Positions 10,989 to 31,103 of a stretch of DNA of 49,603 bases are shown piece after piece. This DNA comes from Bacteroidota bacterium (lineage in GTDB: Bacteria; Bacteroidota; Ignavibacteria; Kapaibacteriales; NICIL-2). Both the position numbers and the translations under genes were made by a program. The DNA is taken from the NCBI GenBank assembly GCA_019695345.1, contig JAIBAE010000025.1, positions 1 through 49,603 on the forward strand, written 5' to 3'. The notes under the pieces were generated by a model. The model searched no databases and had not been told where the DNA came from. It saw only the letters and a program-made list of their open reading frames with translations. Position 1 is the stretch's first letter. Each line of letters begins with the position of its first letter.

Positions 10989-11723
10989 ATGGCACAACGT
11001 TATCATACAAAGATTATACTGTTACTTGTAACAACTACGCTCATGGTGTTGCTTTCGGGGTATTCCCCTCAAACATCAACCGAGTATGTTGAATACATTG
11101 CCGATATACAACACCAAGCACTTATCATGTATTGGAAAAACGAAAACGGTGATATTCTCCGTACAATCCAAAACCTTAAAGAACACGTGGAACAGCAAAA
11201 TCAACAACTGCTATTTGCAATGAATGGTGGCATGTTTACACAAGAGTATGCTCCGCTTGGTTTATACATACAACAACAAAAAGTGCTTACCTCGCTTAAT
11301 ACAAAAAGCGGCTTTGGTAATTTCTACATCAAACCCAATGGTGTATTTTGGGTTAGCACAAACAACAAAGCGGAAATTACACCAACCGCAAACTTTACGT
11401 TAACCAAGAATATTCGGTATGCAACGCAATCCGGCCCAATGTTACTTATCAATGGTATTATCAATACCGCGTTTACTAATGGCTCTAAAAACGTGAACAT
11501 CCGCAACGGAGTTGGGATTCTGCCTAATAACAAGGTGTTGTTTGTTATGTCTAAACACGAAGTTAATTTTTACGACTTTGCTTTGTATTTTAAGCAACGG
11601 GGCTGTTTACAGGCCCTTTACTTAGATGGCTTTGTTTCCAGAACGTATGCACCGTCTCAAAAATGGATACAGACCGATGGTGATTTTGGTGTAATGATAG
11701 CCGTAACAAAGCCAAAAAAGTAA
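10989..11723 (+). CDS. Phosphodiester glycosidase (NAGPA/DUF2233) family protein
   Basis: A 244-residue exported protein (signal segment about residues 8-25, no lipobox cysteine). It carries the conserved blocks of the NAGPA domain named after the human enzyme that uncovers mannose-6-phosphate: LLFAMNGGMF near residue 75, ATQSGPMLLINGII, NIRNGVGI and the C-terminal ALYLDGFVSRTYAP. Bacterial members are thought to cleave or bind sugar phosphodiesters of the envelope; the substrate here is unknown. It has its own promoter element and stands alone, with a repeat on each side. Confidence 0.85.
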   Translation: MAQRYHTKIILLLVTTTLMVLLSGYSPQTSTEYVEYIADIQHQALIMYWKNENGDILRTIQNLKEHVEQQNQQLLFAMNGGMFTQEYAPLGLYIQQQKVLTSLNTKSGFGNFYIKPNGVFWVSTNNKAEITPTANFTLTKNIRYATQSGPMLLINGIINTAFTNGSKNVNIRNGVGILPNNKVLFVMSKHEVNFYDFALYFKQRGCLQALYLDGFVSRTYAPSQKWIQTDGDFGVMIAVTKPKK

Positions 11724-23396: not shown

Positions 23397-23462
23397 AAGC
23401 TGTACCGGTGGGTTCGCACCGGGTTGGCGCGCTGGCGCGGTTGCTTCGGCAGATGTGGAAAA
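23397..23462 (+). repeat. Dispersed intergenic repeat family 2
   Basis: GCTGTACCGGTGGGTTCGCA then CCGGGTTGGCG, followed by GTTGCTTCGGC and ATGTGGAAAAC. Lies downstream of the third cyclase gene and upstream of the haem-protein gene. Confidence 0.8.
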
Positions 23463-23542: not shown

Positions 23543-25624
23543 TCACCCGTTGCCGTCCGAGCGTTCTAAGAAATACGTTCTCATCATTCCTTTGCCTTTG
23601 ATTTCGATTTCGCCGCGTGGGATAACGACAACCCCATCCCCGCCTTCCCCCGTAGGGAAGGACACGGAATCGTGTGTTTGGGTGGGAGTCAACGCACGAA
23701 CAAACTCCTCACTCACATGTATTCTTCCTGCCTCGCCGTGGCTTTCCATGCGGCTTGCGGTATTCACGGCATCAGAGAAAACATCATAGATAAATCTATC
23801 TTCTCCAACAACACCTGCTACCACCGGGCCACAGTGAATACCTACTCTAATACTGAGATGTCCATAACCATCAAAGTAATTCTTTAACTCATCCGGAATA
23901 GAAAGCGACTCAATCATTTCAAATGCTGCAGATGTTATTCTTTGAGCATGGTCAGAACATTCAACCGGGGCACCGGCTATTGCCATATATCCATCGCCTA
24001 TTGTTTTAATTTTTTCACAACCATGCTTCTTTATAATTCTATCAAAGTCTGAAAAAACATACCCTAAAAATTGAAGTACTACTTGTGCGGGCATGGCTGA
24101 ACTGATTGTTGTGAATCCCTTAATATCAGCAAAAAGAATAGACACATTAGGGAAGTAATCTGCTATCTGTTGCTCGTCATTAATTATTCGGTTTGCAATG
24201 CTAACAGGAAGCACACGGTGGAGCAATGTGGTGGTTGCGTTCATTTTAGCATCTGCTGTTGCTTTGGCAAGTTCAATTATCCTTTGGTGTTCGCGAATCG
24301 CCTCTTGTTTCTTTACTTCCACCATATTGAGTTCTCGCGCAGCTTCAATGTACTTTCTTAGTTGAACAGCAAGTTCTTTCCATCTACCTTGACTCTCGTA
24401 TAAATCTGCAAGGTAATTGTAAAAATCAACAACTATTGCTTTAGCTTCAATCTTAATACCTAATGCAATTGCCTTTAACAAATATTCTTCAGCTTTAGTA
24501 GTACTGTAGCTATCAAATTCAGGTATAGCATACAGTCCACCGATGTTTCCTGCAACAAGCGCTACACCGGACTCTTCACCAAGTGCTTCATGAACAGAAA
24601 GTGCTTTAAACATGTACTCCAATGCCTTATTATAGTCACCAAGTTGCTTATACACATTGCCGATGTTTCCTGTAACATGGGCTATACCTGATTGTTCTCC
24701 GAGTGCTTCGTGTGCAGAGAGTGCTTTACCATAGTATTCCAATGCCTTGTCATAATCGCCGATATCAGAATATACATTTCCTATATTCCCTGTTACACCC
24801 GCCATACCAGATTGTTCCCCAAGTGCTTCCTGTTCTGCGAGTGCTTGTAACATGTATTCCAGCGCCTTATTATAGTCGCCAAGTTCCTTATATATACTCC
24901 CGATGTTCGCTCTAACGCGGGCTAACGATGATTGTGCTCCTACTGCTTTGTGTGCAGAGAGAGCTTTATTAAAATATTCTATCGCTTTGTCATAGTCGCC
25001 AAGATTGTAATACACAATCCCGATGTTTCCTGTAACGCTGGCTGCAAATGATATGTCTCCAAGTGCTTCATGTACAGAGAGTGCTTTACTCATACATTCC
25101 AATGCCATGCTGTAGTCGTCGAGATTCATATACACAAGTCCGATGTTCCCGGTAACACGTGCTACCCCGGAGTCATCACCAAGTGCTTGATGTATAGAGA
25201 GTGCTTTGTTATAGTATTCCAATGTCTTGGCATAGTCACCAAACTTGTTGTACACATTTCCTATAAGGTTTAGTGCCTTGGGTTTGATATCGTCGGTACC
25301 ATATTCCTCTGCTACTGCAAGAACTTGCTCTGCTTGTTCAAGGGCAGTATTGTTGTTACCGCGGCGGTATGCAGTAGTGGCAAGGGAAAGAAGTGCGTAG
25401 ATGTAAAGTAAAACTCCTTTTCTGTCTTCAACTGTTGGAATGGAATGCTGTGCTGAGTTTGTTGTAGTACCTGAATGGGGAAAGACATTGCTTAAGGGTA
25501 TGGTTTGTGTGAACTGAACATTGCGCAGGACTCGTTGTGCAAGTTGTTCTGCTTCGTCGAAATTACTAGTGTTGCTTGCTTTATTTGCTTTGTCAAGCAA
25601 TGCTTGTAGTTCAGCGTGTGTCAT
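23543..25624 (-). CDS. TPR-containing adenylate cyclase (class III), third of three
   Basis: A 693-residue cytoplasmic protein. About eight 40-residue TPR units (about 80-400) precede a coiled linker and a class III cyclase domain (about 490-665). Both metal aspartates are present (D500 in LFADIKGF, D544 in IGDGYMAIAG), as are the adenine-selecting lysine (EKIKTIGD) and aspartate (YDVFSDAVN) and the transition-state arginine (NTASRMES), so it should make cAMP. TPRs probably sense a protein partner. A hairpin-forming insert lies in frame near the C-terminus (23631-23690). Its last codons and 3' flank closely repeat those of the neighbouring cyclase. It has a promoter-like motif shared with the first cyclase. 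Confidence 0.92.
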   Translation of the reverse strand: MTHAELQALLDKANKASNTSNFDEAEQLAQRVLRNVQFTQTIPLSNVFPHSGTTTNSAQHSIPTVEDRKGVLLYIYALLSLATTAYRRGNNNTALEQAEQVLAVAEEYGTDDIKPKALNLIGNVYNKFGDYAKTLEYYNKALSIHQALGDDSGVARVTGNIGLVYMNLDDYSMALECMSKALSVHEALGDISFAASVTGNIGIVYYNLGDYDKAIEYFNKALSAHKAVGAQSSLARVRANIGSIYKELGDYNKALEYMLQALAEQEALGEQSGMAGVTGNIGNVYSDIGDYDKALEYYGKALSAHEALGEQSGIAHVTGNIGNVYKQLGDYNKALEYMFKALSVHEALGEESGVALVAGNIGGLYAIPEFDSYSTTKAEEYLLKAIALGIKIEAKAIVVDFYNYLADLYESQGRWKELAVQLRKYIEAARELNMVEVKKQEAIREHQRIIELAKATADAKMNATTTLLHRVLPVSIANRIINDEQQIADYFPNVSILFADIKGFTTISSAMPAQVVLQFLGYVFSDFDRIIKKHGCEKIKTIGDGYMAIAGAPVECSDHAQRITSAAFEMIESLSIPDELKNYFDGYGHLSIRVGIHCGPVVAGVVGEDRFIYDVFSDAVNTASRMESHGEAGRIHVSEEFVRALTPTQTHDSVSFPTGEGGDGVVVIPRGEIEIKGKGMMRTYFLERSDGNG
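23631..23690. repeat. Hairpin element inside the third cyclase gene
   Basis: CCTTCCC (23643-23649) pairs with GGGAAGG (23655-23661). CATCCC-type and GGGTGGG-type arms flank it. It is read in frame and encodes a Ser/Gly-rich linker (SVSFPTGEGGDGVVV). The same place in the two other cyclases holds comparable elements. Confidence 0.65.
24500..25260 (-). repeat. Tandem 120-bp TPR-coding repeats in the third cyclase
   Basis: Units of 40 codons repeat with 120-bp spacing (GNIGNVYxxLGDYNKALEYM pattern). They are diverged in sequence, unlike the nearly identical units in the second cyclase. Confidence 0.8.
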
Positions 25625-25649
25625 GGTTTTTTGTAAGTGTTACACCGCA

Positions 25650-25664
25650 TACAAATTACACATT
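25650..25664 (-). promoter_or_regulatory. Shared upstream motif of the cyclase genes
   Basis: AATGTGTAATTTGTA (- strand) lies 26 bases ahead of the third cyclase. The identical 15 bases lie 22 bases ahead of the first cyclase (29734-29748). Likely a promoter core or regulator site. Confidence 0.5.
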
Positions 25665-25680
25665 CCATAACAATTACTAT

Positions 25681-25748
25681 GCGGTGCTGTACCGTTGGGT
25701 TCGCACCGGGTTGGCGTGCAGAAGGATTGCCTCGGTAGAGGTGGAAAC
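25681..25748 (+). repeat. Dispersed intergenic repeat family 2
   Basis: GCTGTACCGTTGGGTTCGCA then CCGGGTTGGCG, followed by GGATTGCCTCGG and AGGTGGAAAC. Lies between the second and third cyclase genes. Confidence 0.8.
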
Positions 25749-25798
25749 AAGATAAAAATTTGTGGTTCTCTCACGGTATTACACGGCGTTATGCTCGG

Positions 25799-27592
25799 TC
25801 ACCCGTTGCCGTCCGAGCGTTCTAAGAAATACGTTCTCATCATTCCTTTGCCTTTCATTTCGATTTCGTCGCGTTCAATCAACCCCATCCCAACCTTCCC
25901 CAAAAGGGAAGGAGTATCTGTTAGTAAGGCATCTCCTTTGGAGAGGGTTTGGGTGAGATGTATTACAAACTCCTCACTCACATGTATTCTTCCTGCCTCG
26001 CCGTGGCTTTCCATGCGGCTTGCTGTGTTCACTGCATCGCCCCATAAATCGTAGAGAAACTTATTTTCCCCAACAACGCCAGCTGCGGCGGGACCGCAAT
26101 GTACACCAATACGCACTTGTATTTCGGGAATTGATTCTATCCACGTTCTGTCACCATATTCTTCCGGAAATGTAACCACCAGGTTTTGCATCACATCAAG
26201 AAGTTTGAGTGCGGCGTGGGCTGCGCGGTGGGTGTGGTCTTCTTGAATAACCGGCGCACCCGCTACTGCCATGTACGCATCACCAATGGTTTTGATTTTC
26301 TCTAAGCCAAACTCACGCATTACGCCATCGGCAGCAGTGAAGATGGCATTGAGTAAATGCACAAGTTGTTGTGCGGTGATGGTAGTAGAGATTCTTGTAA
26401 AATCAACAATATCCATGAAGAGAATTGAGACAGAGTCGAAGTGGTCGGCAATGGGATTTTCACCTTTGATGAGGCGTGTGGTTATTTCTTCGGGGAGGAT
26501 GTTGTTGAGAATGTTCTTCTCGGCGGTGGCGCGGGTGCGCTCTATTTCAATCGCTTTTTGTTGCTCGCGGATGGACTCTTGCTTCTTGACTTCTTCTATG
26601 TTTATCTCGTCCTTTATCGCAATGTGTTTCTTGTTTTGCGCAAATGCTTCTTCCCAACGCTTTTCGTGTTCATAGAGTTCTGATAAGGTTTTATGAAACC
26701 CGACCAAATATGATTTCGCTCCAATCTCCGTACTTATCGCCAGCGCTTTCAGCAAAAACTCCTCTGCCTTCACCGCGTCAAAGCCCTCAAACTCAACCGT
26801 AGAGTATGCCGCGCCGATGTTGCCAAGATGATTTGCAACTCCCGCCTTGTTGCCGAGTTCTTCCGCTATCGTGAGCGCCTTGCCGTAATACTCTAATGCC
26901 TTGGGGTAGTCGGAGAGATTCTGGTGCACAGAGCCGATGTTGCCAAGCCATGCTGCTACTTCCGCCTTGTTTCCGAGCTCTTCCGCTATCGTGAGTGCCT
27001 TGCCGTAATACTCTAATGCCTTGGGGTAGTCGGAGAGATTCTGGTGCACAATGCCGATGTTGCCAAGCCATATCGATACTCCCGCTTTGTTGCCGAGCTC
27101 TTCGAACATGGAGAGTGCCTTGCCGTAATACTCTAATGCCTTGGGGTAGTCGGAGAGATTCTGGTGCACAGAGCCGATGTTGCCAAGCTTTGTTGCAACT
27201 CCTGCCTTGTTTCCGAGCTCTTCTGCTATGGAGAGTGCCTTGCCATAATACTCTAATGCCTTGGGGTAGTCGGAGAGATTCTGGTGCACAGAGCCGATGC
27301 TACCAAGTGCTTTGGCTATGCCTGCTTTGTCAGCTATTTCCTCGCTTAGAAGCAAGGAAGAGTTGAGATGCTCAAGTGCTTTGGGGTAGTCGCTTCGCCT
27401 CCACGATACCACTCCGAGTATGCGTGTGGCGTGGGCGCGGAGTTCATTACCCTGTCGCTCCGCACCATTCCCATTATCATCGGGGACTTTTGAGAGGACT
27501 TCATTCGCCAGCCGCTCAGCTTGGTCGTAGTTGCCTTTGTTTTGTTCTTCTTCTGCTTGGGAAAGCAGGGCTTGTAGTTGTTCGTGTGTCAT
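25799..27592 (-). CDS. TPR-containing adenylate cyclase (class III), second of three
   Basis: A 597-residue protein. Residues 60-290 carry about six TPR units of 40 residues (GNIGSVHQNLSDYPKALEYY), several nearly identical in DNA. A coiled linker (about 320-375) follows, then the cyclase domain (about 385-565) with D394 (LFMDIVDF), D438 (GDAYMAVAG), lysine in EKIKTIGD, aspartate in YDLWGDAVN and arginine in NTASRMES; all active-site positions are intact. Its ATG overlaps the stop of the first cyclase by one base (TAATG), so translation is probably coupled. A palindromic element (25880-25962) is read in frame near the C-terminus. The last residues match those of the third cyclase. Confidence 0.92.
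   Translation of the reverse strand: MTHEQLQALLSQAEEEQNKGNYDQAERLANEVLSKVPDDNGNGAERQGNELRAHATRILGVVSWRRSDYPKALEHLNSSLLLSEEIADKAGIAKALGSIGSVHQNLSDYPKALEYYGKALSIAEELGNKAGVATKLGNIGSVHQNLSDYPKALEYYGKALSMFEELGNKAGVSIWLGNIGIVHQNLSDYPKALEYYGKALTIAEELGNKAEVAAWLGNIGSVHQNLSDYPKALEYYGKALTIAEELGNKAGVANHLGNIGAAYSTVEFEGFDAVKAEEFLLKALAISTEIGAKSYLVGFHKTLSELYEHEKRWEEAFAQNKKHIAIKDEINIEEVKKQESIREQQKAIEIERTRATAEKNILNNILPEEITTRLIKGENPIADHFDSVSILFMDIVDFTRISTTITAQQLVHLLNAIFTAADGVMREFGLEKIKTIGDAYMAVAGAPVIQEDHTHRAAHAALKLLDVMQNLVVTFPEEYGDRTWIESIPEIQVRIGVHCGPAAAGVVGENKFLYDLWGDAVNTASRMESHGEAGRIHVSEEFVIHLTQTLSKGDALLTDTPSLLGKVGMGLIERDEIEMKGKGMMRTYFLERSDGNG
25880..25962. repeat. Palindromic element inside the second cyclase gene
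   Basis: Outer arms of CATCCCAACC type and GGTTTGGGTG type enclose CCTTCCC/GGGAAGG (25894-25900 with 25906-25912) and a smaller CTCC/GGAG hairpin. It encodes TQTLSKGDALLTDTPSLLGK and the next residues. It has the form of intergenic palindromes seen in other bacteria. Confidence 0.65.
26815..27310 (-). repeat. Tandem near-identical 120-bp TPR repeats in the second cyclase
   Basis: At least four to five units with exactly 120-bp spacing; for instance CCGATGTTGCCAAG recurs at about 26815, 26935, 27055 and 27175, and with small changes at 27295. Long blocks are identical between units, pointing to recent expansion or homogenisation. Confidence 0.92.
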
Positions 27593-29712
27593 TATGCTCT
27601 CTCCAAGAAAAACGTTTTCATTATGCCTTTGCCTTTGATAGCAATTTCGTCACGAGGTATAGCCCTCATCCCTTCCTTCTCCCAGTGGGAGAAGGTGTCC
27701 GAAGGACGGTTGAGGGCTTGTAAAAACTCCTCACTCACATGTATCCTCCCCGCCTCGCCGTGACTCTCCATTCTACTCGCTGTATTCACTGCATCGCCCC
27801 ATAAATCAAAGGTGAATTTCTTGTCGCCTATAACGCCGCCGATTGCTTCACCGCAGTGCAGACCTATACGTACTTGTATTTCGCCAACCTGCTCTGCCCA
27901 ACTTGTCTCGCCAAGTTCTTCGGGAATAGTGACAGATAAGTTATTCATTGCTTCCATTACATCTAAAGCGGCAAGTGCTGCACGTTGTGCATGGTCATCT
28001 TGGTGAACAGGCGCGCCGGCAACTGCCATATAGGCATCGCCAATGGTTTTGATTTTCTCCAAGCCATGTTTCTCCATCACTGCATCGGCATTACTGAAAA
28101 TGGTATTGAGGAGATAGATAAGATGACGCGGTGGAATGATAGCGGCAATGCGTGTGAAGTTCACCAAATCCATAAAGAGGACGCTGACATTCGGGTAACT
28201 GTCGGCAATAAATGTTTCATTGTTGATGAGTCGGTCGGCGATGATAGGCGGAAGTGTATTATGCAAGATACGTTTTACTGTTGCTGCTTCAGCCCTCTCA
28301 ACAGCAAGTTGTTTTTCGCGCTCTGCGGTTTTGCGTTCATAATCCAATTGCTCGGCTTTCTTTTTGGCATCTTCGCTTTGGACTTCCTCTTTTAGTTCGT
28401 GGTATTTTTTTAAGTGGTCAAATGCTTCTGATTTTCGTCCTTGTTTTTCGTAAATCTCAGTAAGTGATTCGTGAAGGAGATATAGTCCCTTTTTGTCGCC
28501 TAATTCCTCGAATATTGCTCCTCCTTGCAGTGTATATTCTTCTGCTTTCTTCAAATCATATCCGTCAAATTTTATTTCTGCATATACCTGTCCAATATTA
28601 CAAATCCAGTTAGCCATTCCACGTAAATCATTAATATCTTCACAAATAGCAACAGCCTCTTCGTAGCATGCGAGTGCATTGCTAAAGTCATAGAGCTCTT
28701 TGTACTGATTCCCAATATTCCCAATATGTCTTGCTACTCCGCTCTTATTATCAAGCTCTTCATCTAGTGTGCGTGCTTTATGTAAATATTCTAACGCTCG
28801 TAAGTAGTCAGAATGTTCACTATGTACAATTCCTATATTGCCTGTGCATAATGCCACACCTTGCTTGTTACCAAGTTGTTCATAAAGTGTGAGAGCTTTC
28901 TCGTTGTATTCAAGCGAGCGGGAATAGTCGGAGAGAAGACTAAATACATTTGCGATAGTAGAGGTAATAAAAGCAATGCCGAGCTTGTTACCGACTTCTT
29001 CATAGAGAAATAGTGCTTTCAGATTGTATTCCAATGCACGTGAATAATCATGGAGATTCATATAAACGCTACCAGTGCAATAGAGGTTGTGCCCAGCCCA
29101 ATCCTTATTACCAATTTCTGTATTAATGCTTAGCGCTTGGCTGTAATGCTCAAGAGCGAGTGAATAATCTCTGAGGTCGGCATATACGCTTCCGATGTTA
29201 TGAATAGCACCTGCCATAGCTTTTTTGTTGTTGAATTCTTCATGAATTGCAAGTGCTTTCCGATGGTATTCCAACGCGCGTGAATAGTCCTGAAGATTAT
29301 TATAAGTAAGCCCGATGTTACCTGTGATCAATCCAATGCTTCGTTTATCTTCAAGTTCTTCATAGAGTGCAAACGCTTTAAACTCGTATTCTAATGCACA
29401 ATGGAAGTCAAATAGTTGCTTGTGCACGACTCCTATGTTAAGGTGCGCACGAGCAGTTAATTTTTTATTCTCAGAATTCACGGCTAAGCCAAGTGCCTGC
29501 TCTGCAAAAGGCAATGCCTCTTGTGCATACCCGCGACTCCACAATGATTCACTCAAAGCAAGAAGTACTTTGCAGTGGAGTTCGGGTTCGTTAGCAATAC
29601 TCTCTTCTGTAAGGAGCAGCTGTGCTTGTGTTTCTACTTCTGCGAAGTCGTTGCCTGTTTTTACCAGTGCTTCGAGTTCTTCTACTGCTGTATGTAGTTC
29701 GTTGGGTGTCAT
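27592..29712 (-). CDS. TPR-containing adenylate cyclase (class III), first of three
   Basis: A 706-residue protein and the first gene of the cyclase cluster. About nine TPR units (about 75-420) are more diverged than in the second cyclase. A coiled linker (about 435-490, KKAEQLDYERKTAEREKQ) leads into the cyclase domain (about 505-685) with D515 (LFMDLVNF), D559 (GDAYMAVAG), the lysine in EKIKTIGD, aspartate in DLWGDAVN and arginine in NTASRMES, so adenylate cyclase activity is expected. A palindromic element (27661-27718) is read in frame close to the C-terminus. The stop overlaps the next cyclase ATG. A WYL regulator is transcribed divergently from the shared upstream region. Confidence 0.92.
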   Translation of the reverse strand: MTPNELHTAVEELEALVKTGNDFAEVETQAQLLLTEESIANEPELHCKVLLALSESLWSRGYAQEALPFAEQALGLAVNSENKKLTARAHLNIGVVHKQLFDFHCALEYEFKAFALYEELEDKRSIGLITGNIGLTYNNLQDYSRALEYHRKALAIHEEFNNKKAMAGAIHNIGSVYADLRDYSLALEHYSQALSINTEIGNKDWAGHNLYCTGSVYMNLHDYSRALEYNLKALFLYEEVGNKLGIAFITSTIANVFSLLSDYSRSLEYNEKALTLYEQLGNKQGVALCTGNIGIVHSEHSDYLRALEYLHKARTLDEELDNKSGVARHIGNIGNQYKELYDFSNALACYEEAVAICEDINDLRGMANWICNIGQVYAEIKFDGYDLKKAEEYTLQGGAIFEELGDKKGLYLLHESLTEIYEKQGRKSEAFDHLKKYHELKEEVQSEDAKKKAEQLDYERKTAEREKQLAVERAEAATVKRILHNTLPPIIADRLINNETFIADSYPNVSVLFMDLVNFTRIAAIIPPRHLIYLLNTIFSNADAVMEKHGLEKIKTIGDAYMAVAGAPVHQDDHAQRAALAALDVMEAMNNLSVTIPEELGETSWAEQVGEIQVRIGLHCGEAIGGVIGDKKFTFDLWGDAVNTASRMESHGEAGRIHVSEEFLQALNRPSDTFSHWEKEGMRAIPRDEIAIKGKGIMKTFFLERA
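27661..27718. repeat. Palindromic element inside the first cyclase gene
   Basis: Outer arms AGCCCTCA and TGAGGGCT pair perfectly, and inner arms CCTTCTCCC (27675-27683) and GGGAGAAGG (27687-27695) form a 9-bp stem. The segment TGTCCGAAGGAC between them parallels TGTCCGATAGGAC in the intergenic element at 30892-30954. It encodes NRPSDTFSHWEKEGMRA. Confidence 0.8.
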
Positions 29713-29762: not shown

Positions 29763-29832
29763 GCGCCGCTGTACCAGTGGGTTCGCACCGGGTTGGCGTG
29801 CAGAAGGTTTGCTTCGGCCGATGTGGGAAACC
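29763..29832 (+). repeat. Dispersed intergenic repeat family 2
   Basis: GCGCCGCTGTACCAGTGGGT then TCGCACCGGGTTGGCG, followed by GGTTTGCTTCGGCCG and ATGTGGGAAACC. Lies between the divergent first cyclase and WYL regulator genes. Confidence 0.82.
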
Positions 29833-30864: not shown

Positions 30865-30891
30865 ATAGAATATTCTGCGCTTGTACGTTGT

Positions 30892-30954
30892 ATTCCCCCT
30901 TGCTTTGCTTTCCCCCTTTTCGGAAAGGGGGATGTCCGATAGGACAGGGGGAAT
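30892..30954. repeat. Nested palindromic intergenic element
   Basis: Outer arms ATTCCCCCT (30892-30900) and AGGGGGAAT (30946-30954) enclose a hairpin TCCCCCTTT / AAAGGGGGA (30911-30919 with 30924-30932), followed by TGTCCGATAGGAC. The layout is the same as that of the element inside the first cyclase gene. Confidence 0.85.
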
Positions 30955-31103
30955 TCACACGAACCGGTAATCCTTATTTGTAGTTCTGTACACAACCAGT
31001 TTTCAACGGGAAAACCCTCCTGACATACTGTTGTCACACCCCACCTGTAGTTTGCATCCGAAATCTGAAACATATTTATATACACTAACCGGAGGGCAGG
31101 ACT

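Follow-up and report, generated by a model that had tools for sequence, protein, structure and literature searches.

How do GC-rich palindromes of an intergenic kind come to be read in frame at the same position of three neighbouring genes, and what becomes of them there? The question is raised by a stretch of 49,603 nt (the window, meaning the whole of the DNA analysed), which forms contig C13 in a genome assembled to 4.56 Mb in 163 contigs (completeness 99.9%, contamination 0.3%). Relatives of this genome are found among metagenome bins of Candidatus Kapaibacterium and Ignavibacteria, and they place it in Kapabacteria/Ignavibacteria, so that an FCB bacterium, the host group guessed in a preliminary description of the sequence, was the right guess. 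The best account of the locus, and in our judgement a probable one, is near-neutral capture of dispersed repeats in a tolerant loop of the cyclases, followed by gene conversion.

Palindromic elements in the cyclase loop

The three genes are adjacent, lie on the minus strand and share one architecture, TPR repeats plus a class III adenylyl cyclase domain: cyclase 1 (23543..25624, cyclase domain 23564-24154), cyclase 2 (25799..27592, domain 25820-26446) and cyclase 3 (27592..29712, domain 27601-28206). The class III assignment is based on PF00211 matches above cut-off and on the presence of all catalytic residues. The source genome has 19 such cyclases; a literature search found no paper on cyclases of Kapabacteria. 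Intergenic stretches that resemble one another (CTGTACCGGTGGGTTCGCACCGGGTTGGCG..GTGGAAA) adjoin the cyclase genes at 23399-23460, 25688-25745 and 29768-29830.

Each of the three catalytic domains has a variable loop, on the minus strand at 23603..23701 in cyclase 1, 25859..25966 in cyclase 2 and 27640..27723 in cyclase 3, where it runs from IHVSEEF to IKGKG. Three hairpins had been reported in frame between IHVSEEF and KGKG, and they are present there, in minus-strand ORFs. The element of cyclase 3 (27663..27716, minus strand) is a 54-bp palindromic repeat, type 1, with copies 85-100% identical elsewhere in the genome. It consists of outer arms CCCTCA..TGAGGG, an inner hairpin CCTTCTCCC/GGGAGAAGG and a small hairpin TCC..GGA, and its in-frame peptide is LNRPSDTFSHWEKEGMR. 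Cyclase 2 carries a two-hairpin repeat, type 2, partly decayed (25881..25960, minus strand; peptide LTQTLSKGDALLTDTPSLLGKVGMGL), and cyclase 1 a type-3 repeat (23632..23688, minus strand; peptide TPTQTHDSVSFPTGEGGDGV) that is related to type 2. The encoded peptides do differ completely, as was first stated, but the DNA does not, the elements of cyclases 2 and 1 being related.

An intergenic palindrome at 30892..30954 follows a type-1-like plan, with CCCCC outer arms, a TCCCCCTTT hairpin and a TGTCC hairpin. The common layout that had been noticed between it and the cyclase 3 hairpin (then delimited as 27661-27718) is confirmed: both show outer arms, a single long hairpin inside them and a smaller one, TGTCC..GGAC. 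No second copy of the intergenic sequence was found in a 439-kb sample of the genome, described below.

Compared with shuffled sequences, positions 27655-27725 fold strongly as DNA (z = -6.3, 0/200 shuffles as good), as does the intergenic stretch 30890-30958 (z = -5.1); empty loops of other paralogues gave z from 0.2 to 1.0. The element stretches of cyclases 2 and 1 fold weakly overall (z = -1.3 and -1.5), with their CCTTCCC/GGGAAGG stems intact. These elements, at 25880 and 23631, are real but degenerate, and their status as elements rests on homology to other copies.

The three filled genes of the window are real but too low a count, because 11 of the 19 cyclases in the genome carry an in-frame palindromic element in this loop. 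Type 1 is found in L010, L012 (decayed), L023 and cyclase 3 (L025), type 2 in L017, L018, L021 and cyclase 2 (L027), and type 3 in L011, L014 (decayed) and cyclase 1 (L022). Three loops (L009, L013 and L015) are clearly empty, with a plain length of 18 aa. Those of L020 and L024 appear, by eye, to hold a decayed copy of another, unrelated repeat (GGTCGTTTCGACAAG..), while L019 and L026 have longer loops in which no repeat was recognised; L016 was left unparsed in this census.

The modelled cyclase domain (mean pLDDT 92) matches solved class III cyclases with VIA-align Z up to 27. Its repeat-derived residues 177-190 sit between the helix at 170-176 and the strand at 191-201, and pLDDT is ~66 at loop residues 181-190 against 92 overall; the loop is probably solvent-exposed and tolerant. 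Both metal Asp, the Lys/Asp purine pair, the Asn and the Arg are invariant among 25 relatives, so that the cyclases look active.

Dispersed copies, reading frames and decay

Palindrome copies were to be looked for elsewhere in the genome, and type 1 has ~20 more outside the cyclases, all intergenic, none in frame with a coding signal on both sides. Full or half copies of type 2 occur at ~20 further places, which are intergenic save for two paralogous secreted proteins, L220 (C104) and L228 (C8), where the repeat is in frame at ~1501-1570 in each. In these long proteins it sits inside an apparent C-terminal T9SS-like sorting domain, VVNALGQVV[TSPKPSPKERTSESSFPSPLERAGVRSRSGAMPRVE]HKVQIEASGL. In L220 the type-2 repeat is followed, in frame, by a GTAG-type palindrome.

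The 439-kb sample comprised the window and ~390 kb of contig stretches picked for holding cyclases. It contains 46 GC-rich perfect hairpins with arms of at least 8, of which 37 are intergenic, in the 15% of the sample that is intergenic DNA, and 9 intragenic; five of the nine lie in the cyclase loop, a ratio that is valid for the sample and not for the genome because of the way the sample was picked. Arms of at least 9 occur in 0.2% of random 95-nt coding windows. Chance hairpins were ruled out by the shuffle folding, by the distribution of hairpins in the sample and by the random coding windows.

The pattern as a whole might still be an artefact, of chance GC-rich hairpins or of mis-assembly of metagenome bins. 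The relatives are metagenome-assembled, and in the source genome type-1 and intergenic type-2 copies occupy disjoint contig sets, both of which would suit such an explanation, the second perhaps through an assembly mixed from two genomes; it is opposed by the recurrence of the pattern in bins of different studies, by the 85-100% identity at which dispersed copies match and by contamination of only 0.3%, and we regard it as extremely improbable.

Types 2 and 3, the elements of cyclases 2 and 1 included, have homologous second halves that are read in different frames. Type 2 in the cyclases reads LTQTLSKGEG..PSLLGKVGMG, and the second half of type 3 reads SFPLGEDRDG, one frame over; the DNA that gives LTQTLSKGEG in cyclases gives TSPKPSPKERTSE in the secreted proteins. 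The type 2/3 repeat DNA is read in three ways, with two frames used in cyclases and the third in the two secreted proteins, which argues that the peptide sequence is not the thing kept. CTCC-type elements have 4-5 of their 6 frames open, and survival in frame is therefore likely for them. In L012 and L014 the palindrome has decayed and the frame is still open.

The loop in relatives and exchange among paralogues

Relatives were expected to lack the element and to have a shorter linker, and many do: 51 of 114 sampled linkers are short (20 aa or less), 50-51 contain a repeat that was recognised, and 12 contain something else, being longer but without such a repeat. Together with the further type-1 copies between genes, this supports the earlier interpretation. 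The filled loops hold a variety of repeats. Among other genomes the same loop has a GTAGAGAC..GTCTCTAC repeat. The loops of UWPOB_KAPA1 include GTAGAGACGGTGCATGCACCGTCTCTAC and, in an adjoining paralogue, GTAGCGACAGGTCACGACCTGTCGCTAC; 12 of the 13 such palindromes in that bin are on two cyclase-cluster contigs. SZAS-91 has a loop repeat CATTTCGACTNCGCTCAATG with many copies on non-cyclase contigs, intergenic where tested, and reversed-pattern controls for the GTAGAGAC..GTCTCTAC and CATTTCGACTNCGCTCAATG searches gave 0 matches. A GGTCATT..AATGACC loop repeat is dispersed in two bins (25 and 50 among the matches listed). An AT-rich repeat, GGAATGA..TCAATTC (class F), occupies cyclase loops of UBA2373 and UWPOB_KAPA1 and was not found outside cyclases in these two genomes at E <= 0.001. 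CTCTCC-type loop repeats occur in MAG-305, SZAS-91 and a groundwater bin. At least five of the families at the loop (CTCC group, F, G, H and K) are unrelated in sequence, which at one protein position implies at least five captures.

In one cyclase of MAG-305 (L289, C66) a CATTTCGACTCCGCTCAATG repeat is in frame at position 1500, near the N-terminus of the cyclase, so captures are not limited to the loop.

If the palindromes had a function as RNA or DNA hairpins close to the 3′ ends of the cyclase genes, under selection for mRNA stability, termination or translation, the strong folding of the type-1 copy would be expected, and REPs close to gene 3′ ends do play a role in mRNA decay. Against this, in L012, L014 and the palindrome variants of UWPOB_KAPA1 the hairpins decay with the frame open, 51 of the 114 linkers have no hairpin, the captured classes H and F have perfect arms of 4-6 only, and an Rfam (RNA-family) search of the window gave no match. 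We consider selection on the hairpins quite unlikely and near-neutral capture the better reading.

Cores and loops have different histories. Two adjoining cyclases of SZAS-91 (L091; their loops are near 10993 and 12936) match at 100% over ~480 nt in the catalytic core but diverge on either side of it and at the loop, which is filled in one gene and empty in the other; identity breaks ~75 nt before the loop. This tract looks like the product of gene conversion or of a cassette exchange. A UBA2373 gene and a UWPOB_KAPA1 gene have 98% core identity and different repeats in the loop, and within the source genome cyclase 3 and L024 have cores ~90% identical and different loops. Conversely, the cores of L020 and L024 are only 59% identical, yet their loops and tails agree at 85-90%. 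Cores that are 90-100% identical with different loops indicate that recombination among paralogues, and not insertion alone, spreads and swaps the repeats; loops and cores thus travel separately. Three filled genes need not, given gene conversion, be three insertions; of the earlier phrase 'three times at one site' the recurrence at the loop is real, and a count of three insertions does not follow, conversion being responsible in part. A tree of catalytic domains gave 48 changes of loop label against a minimum of 11, a few of the labels having been assigned through simple patterns ('other' took in some class-K linkers and 'empty' one class-D linker that was cut short, which was partly corrected). 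The tree was set aside as an insertion count on account of these labels and since cores recombine between genes.

With conversion this evident, a single ancestral capture might be thought sufficient, with duplication of genes, conversion and drift responsible for the rest. Many loops of one genome do have a repeat and its junctions in common, as with type 1 in L023 and L025 and class F in G015. None of the at least five unrelated families is derivable from another, however, and we hold a single capture to be very improbable; it is contradicted as a full account and likely to be partly true within genomes.

G030 (SZAS-91), G012 and G031 have very large families of class III cyclases, often arranged in tandem, with 34-68 matches in each genome of 3-3.7 Mb.

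The numbers of cyclase matches (19 to 68 per genome), the fast turnover of loops on conserved cores and the several unrelated repeats at a single loop would also suit a selected platform for diversification, in which repeats and cassette exchange prevent cross-dimerisation of paralogues or vary their response. What we find within genomes speaks for the opposite of insulation, with one repeat common to many paralogues (6 sampled loops of G015 and 13 of G030), and many paralogues have plain short loops. Selection for diversity is thus an unlikely explanation. The related proposal, that the loop has evolved as an insertion platform that diversifies a regulatory or dimer-contact loop through captured repeats and cassette exchange, is in our view equally doubtful; if it were true, selfish repeats would have been domesticated as raw material for diversity of signalling enzymes.

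Probable capture of repeats, and known coding palindromes

In the account that we prefer, capture with little effect followed by conversion, short palindromic repeats of several unrelated families (REP/MITE-like, of non-coding origin) would occasionally enter coding DNA. The site of capture would be the class III cyclase loop between the post-IHVSEEF helix and the last two strands; as this loop would accept any open frame, captures would persist there and be mostly lost elsewhere in genes. Through gene conversion between the numerous paralogues (at least 19 per genome), which often stand in tandem, a captured repeat would then spread and loops would be swapped, and after capture the palindrome would decay with the reading frame kept. 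The repeats were presumably once mobile, and their effect on the enzyme is presumably near neutral. In filled genes the repeat often replaces several loop residues and is not a clean insertion, which leaves room for insertion with deletion or for template switching; simple insertion perhaps explains the captures only in part.

No target-site duplication was evident in the flanks of the listed type-1 copies, and the source genome yielded no enzyme by which the repeats would be moved. For PF01797 (Y1_Tnp) it has one intact protein (C123), a broken match and a weak match. Within 1.5 kb of the C123 transposase gene (TnpA-REP-like) there is no palindrome of this kind, and on this ground a RAYT was put aside as the probable mover. 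On contig C53, at 24389-24763, there is a broken Y1-type transposase remnant with stops; the same contig has a five-cyclase cluster.

The first comparison to be drawn, with Rickettsia palindromic elements, holds for behaviour and not for class. Those elements (Ogata et al. 2000, as reviewed in PMC10969869 and PMC2229807) are 105-150 bp long and lie in unrelated genes, and each is reported to encode a conserved peptide. Both there and here palindromic repeats are dispersed, intergenic as well as in frame within protein-coding genes, and the host protein tolerates them. The cyclase-loop elements differ in size (54 bp for type 1, ~57-80 bp for types 2 and 3, 28 to ~115 bp over all), types 2 and 3 are read in three frames where one conserved peptide per family would be expected, and we therefore do not class them as Rickettsia palindromic elements. 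The elements here also belong to several unrelated families, with several frames used per DNA, and it is mainly in a single loop of a single gene family that they were captured. By analogy with the Rickettsia coding palindromes, the loop may be regarded as a trap for repeats.

GTAG and CGTC REPs have been found inside ORFs of many bacteria, with loops and linkers proposed as neutral sites for them, and in two Xanthomonas species recB is reported to hold REPs that differ although their positions are nearly the same (Di Nocera, De Gregorio and Rocco 2013, PMC3733652). Class G palindromes carry GTAG..CTAC ends, whereas types 1-3 have neither a GTAG nor a CGTC tag at their ends; and in the available part of that paper the genes are unrelated, with no mostly filled multi-gene family and no cassette exchange reported. 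MITEs fused in frame (ERIC, Correia, YPAL; PMC2229807) are likewise small non-autonomous repeats translated within genes. The cyclase-loop elements have outer inverted arms and are shorter, and no terminal TA or target duplication was recognised in them.

Earlier records of coding palindromes are mostly isolated cases from unrelated genes. What is new here is that several unrelated repeats concentrate in a single loop of one gene family, in many genomes and with mosaic exchange. With dozens of paralogues involved, and loops that are empty, filled or decayed side by side, there are many replicates, which bear on whether selfish repeats become protein sequence and on their later fate, and they offer a testable case of captures spread by gene conversion. 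The enzymes themselves have the fold and the catalytic residues in common with known class III adenylyl cyclases (PF00211; Rv1625c and RhGC domains), and differ from them in the loop after the IHVSEEF helix, which is lengthened to 21-59 aa by repeat-derived sequence.
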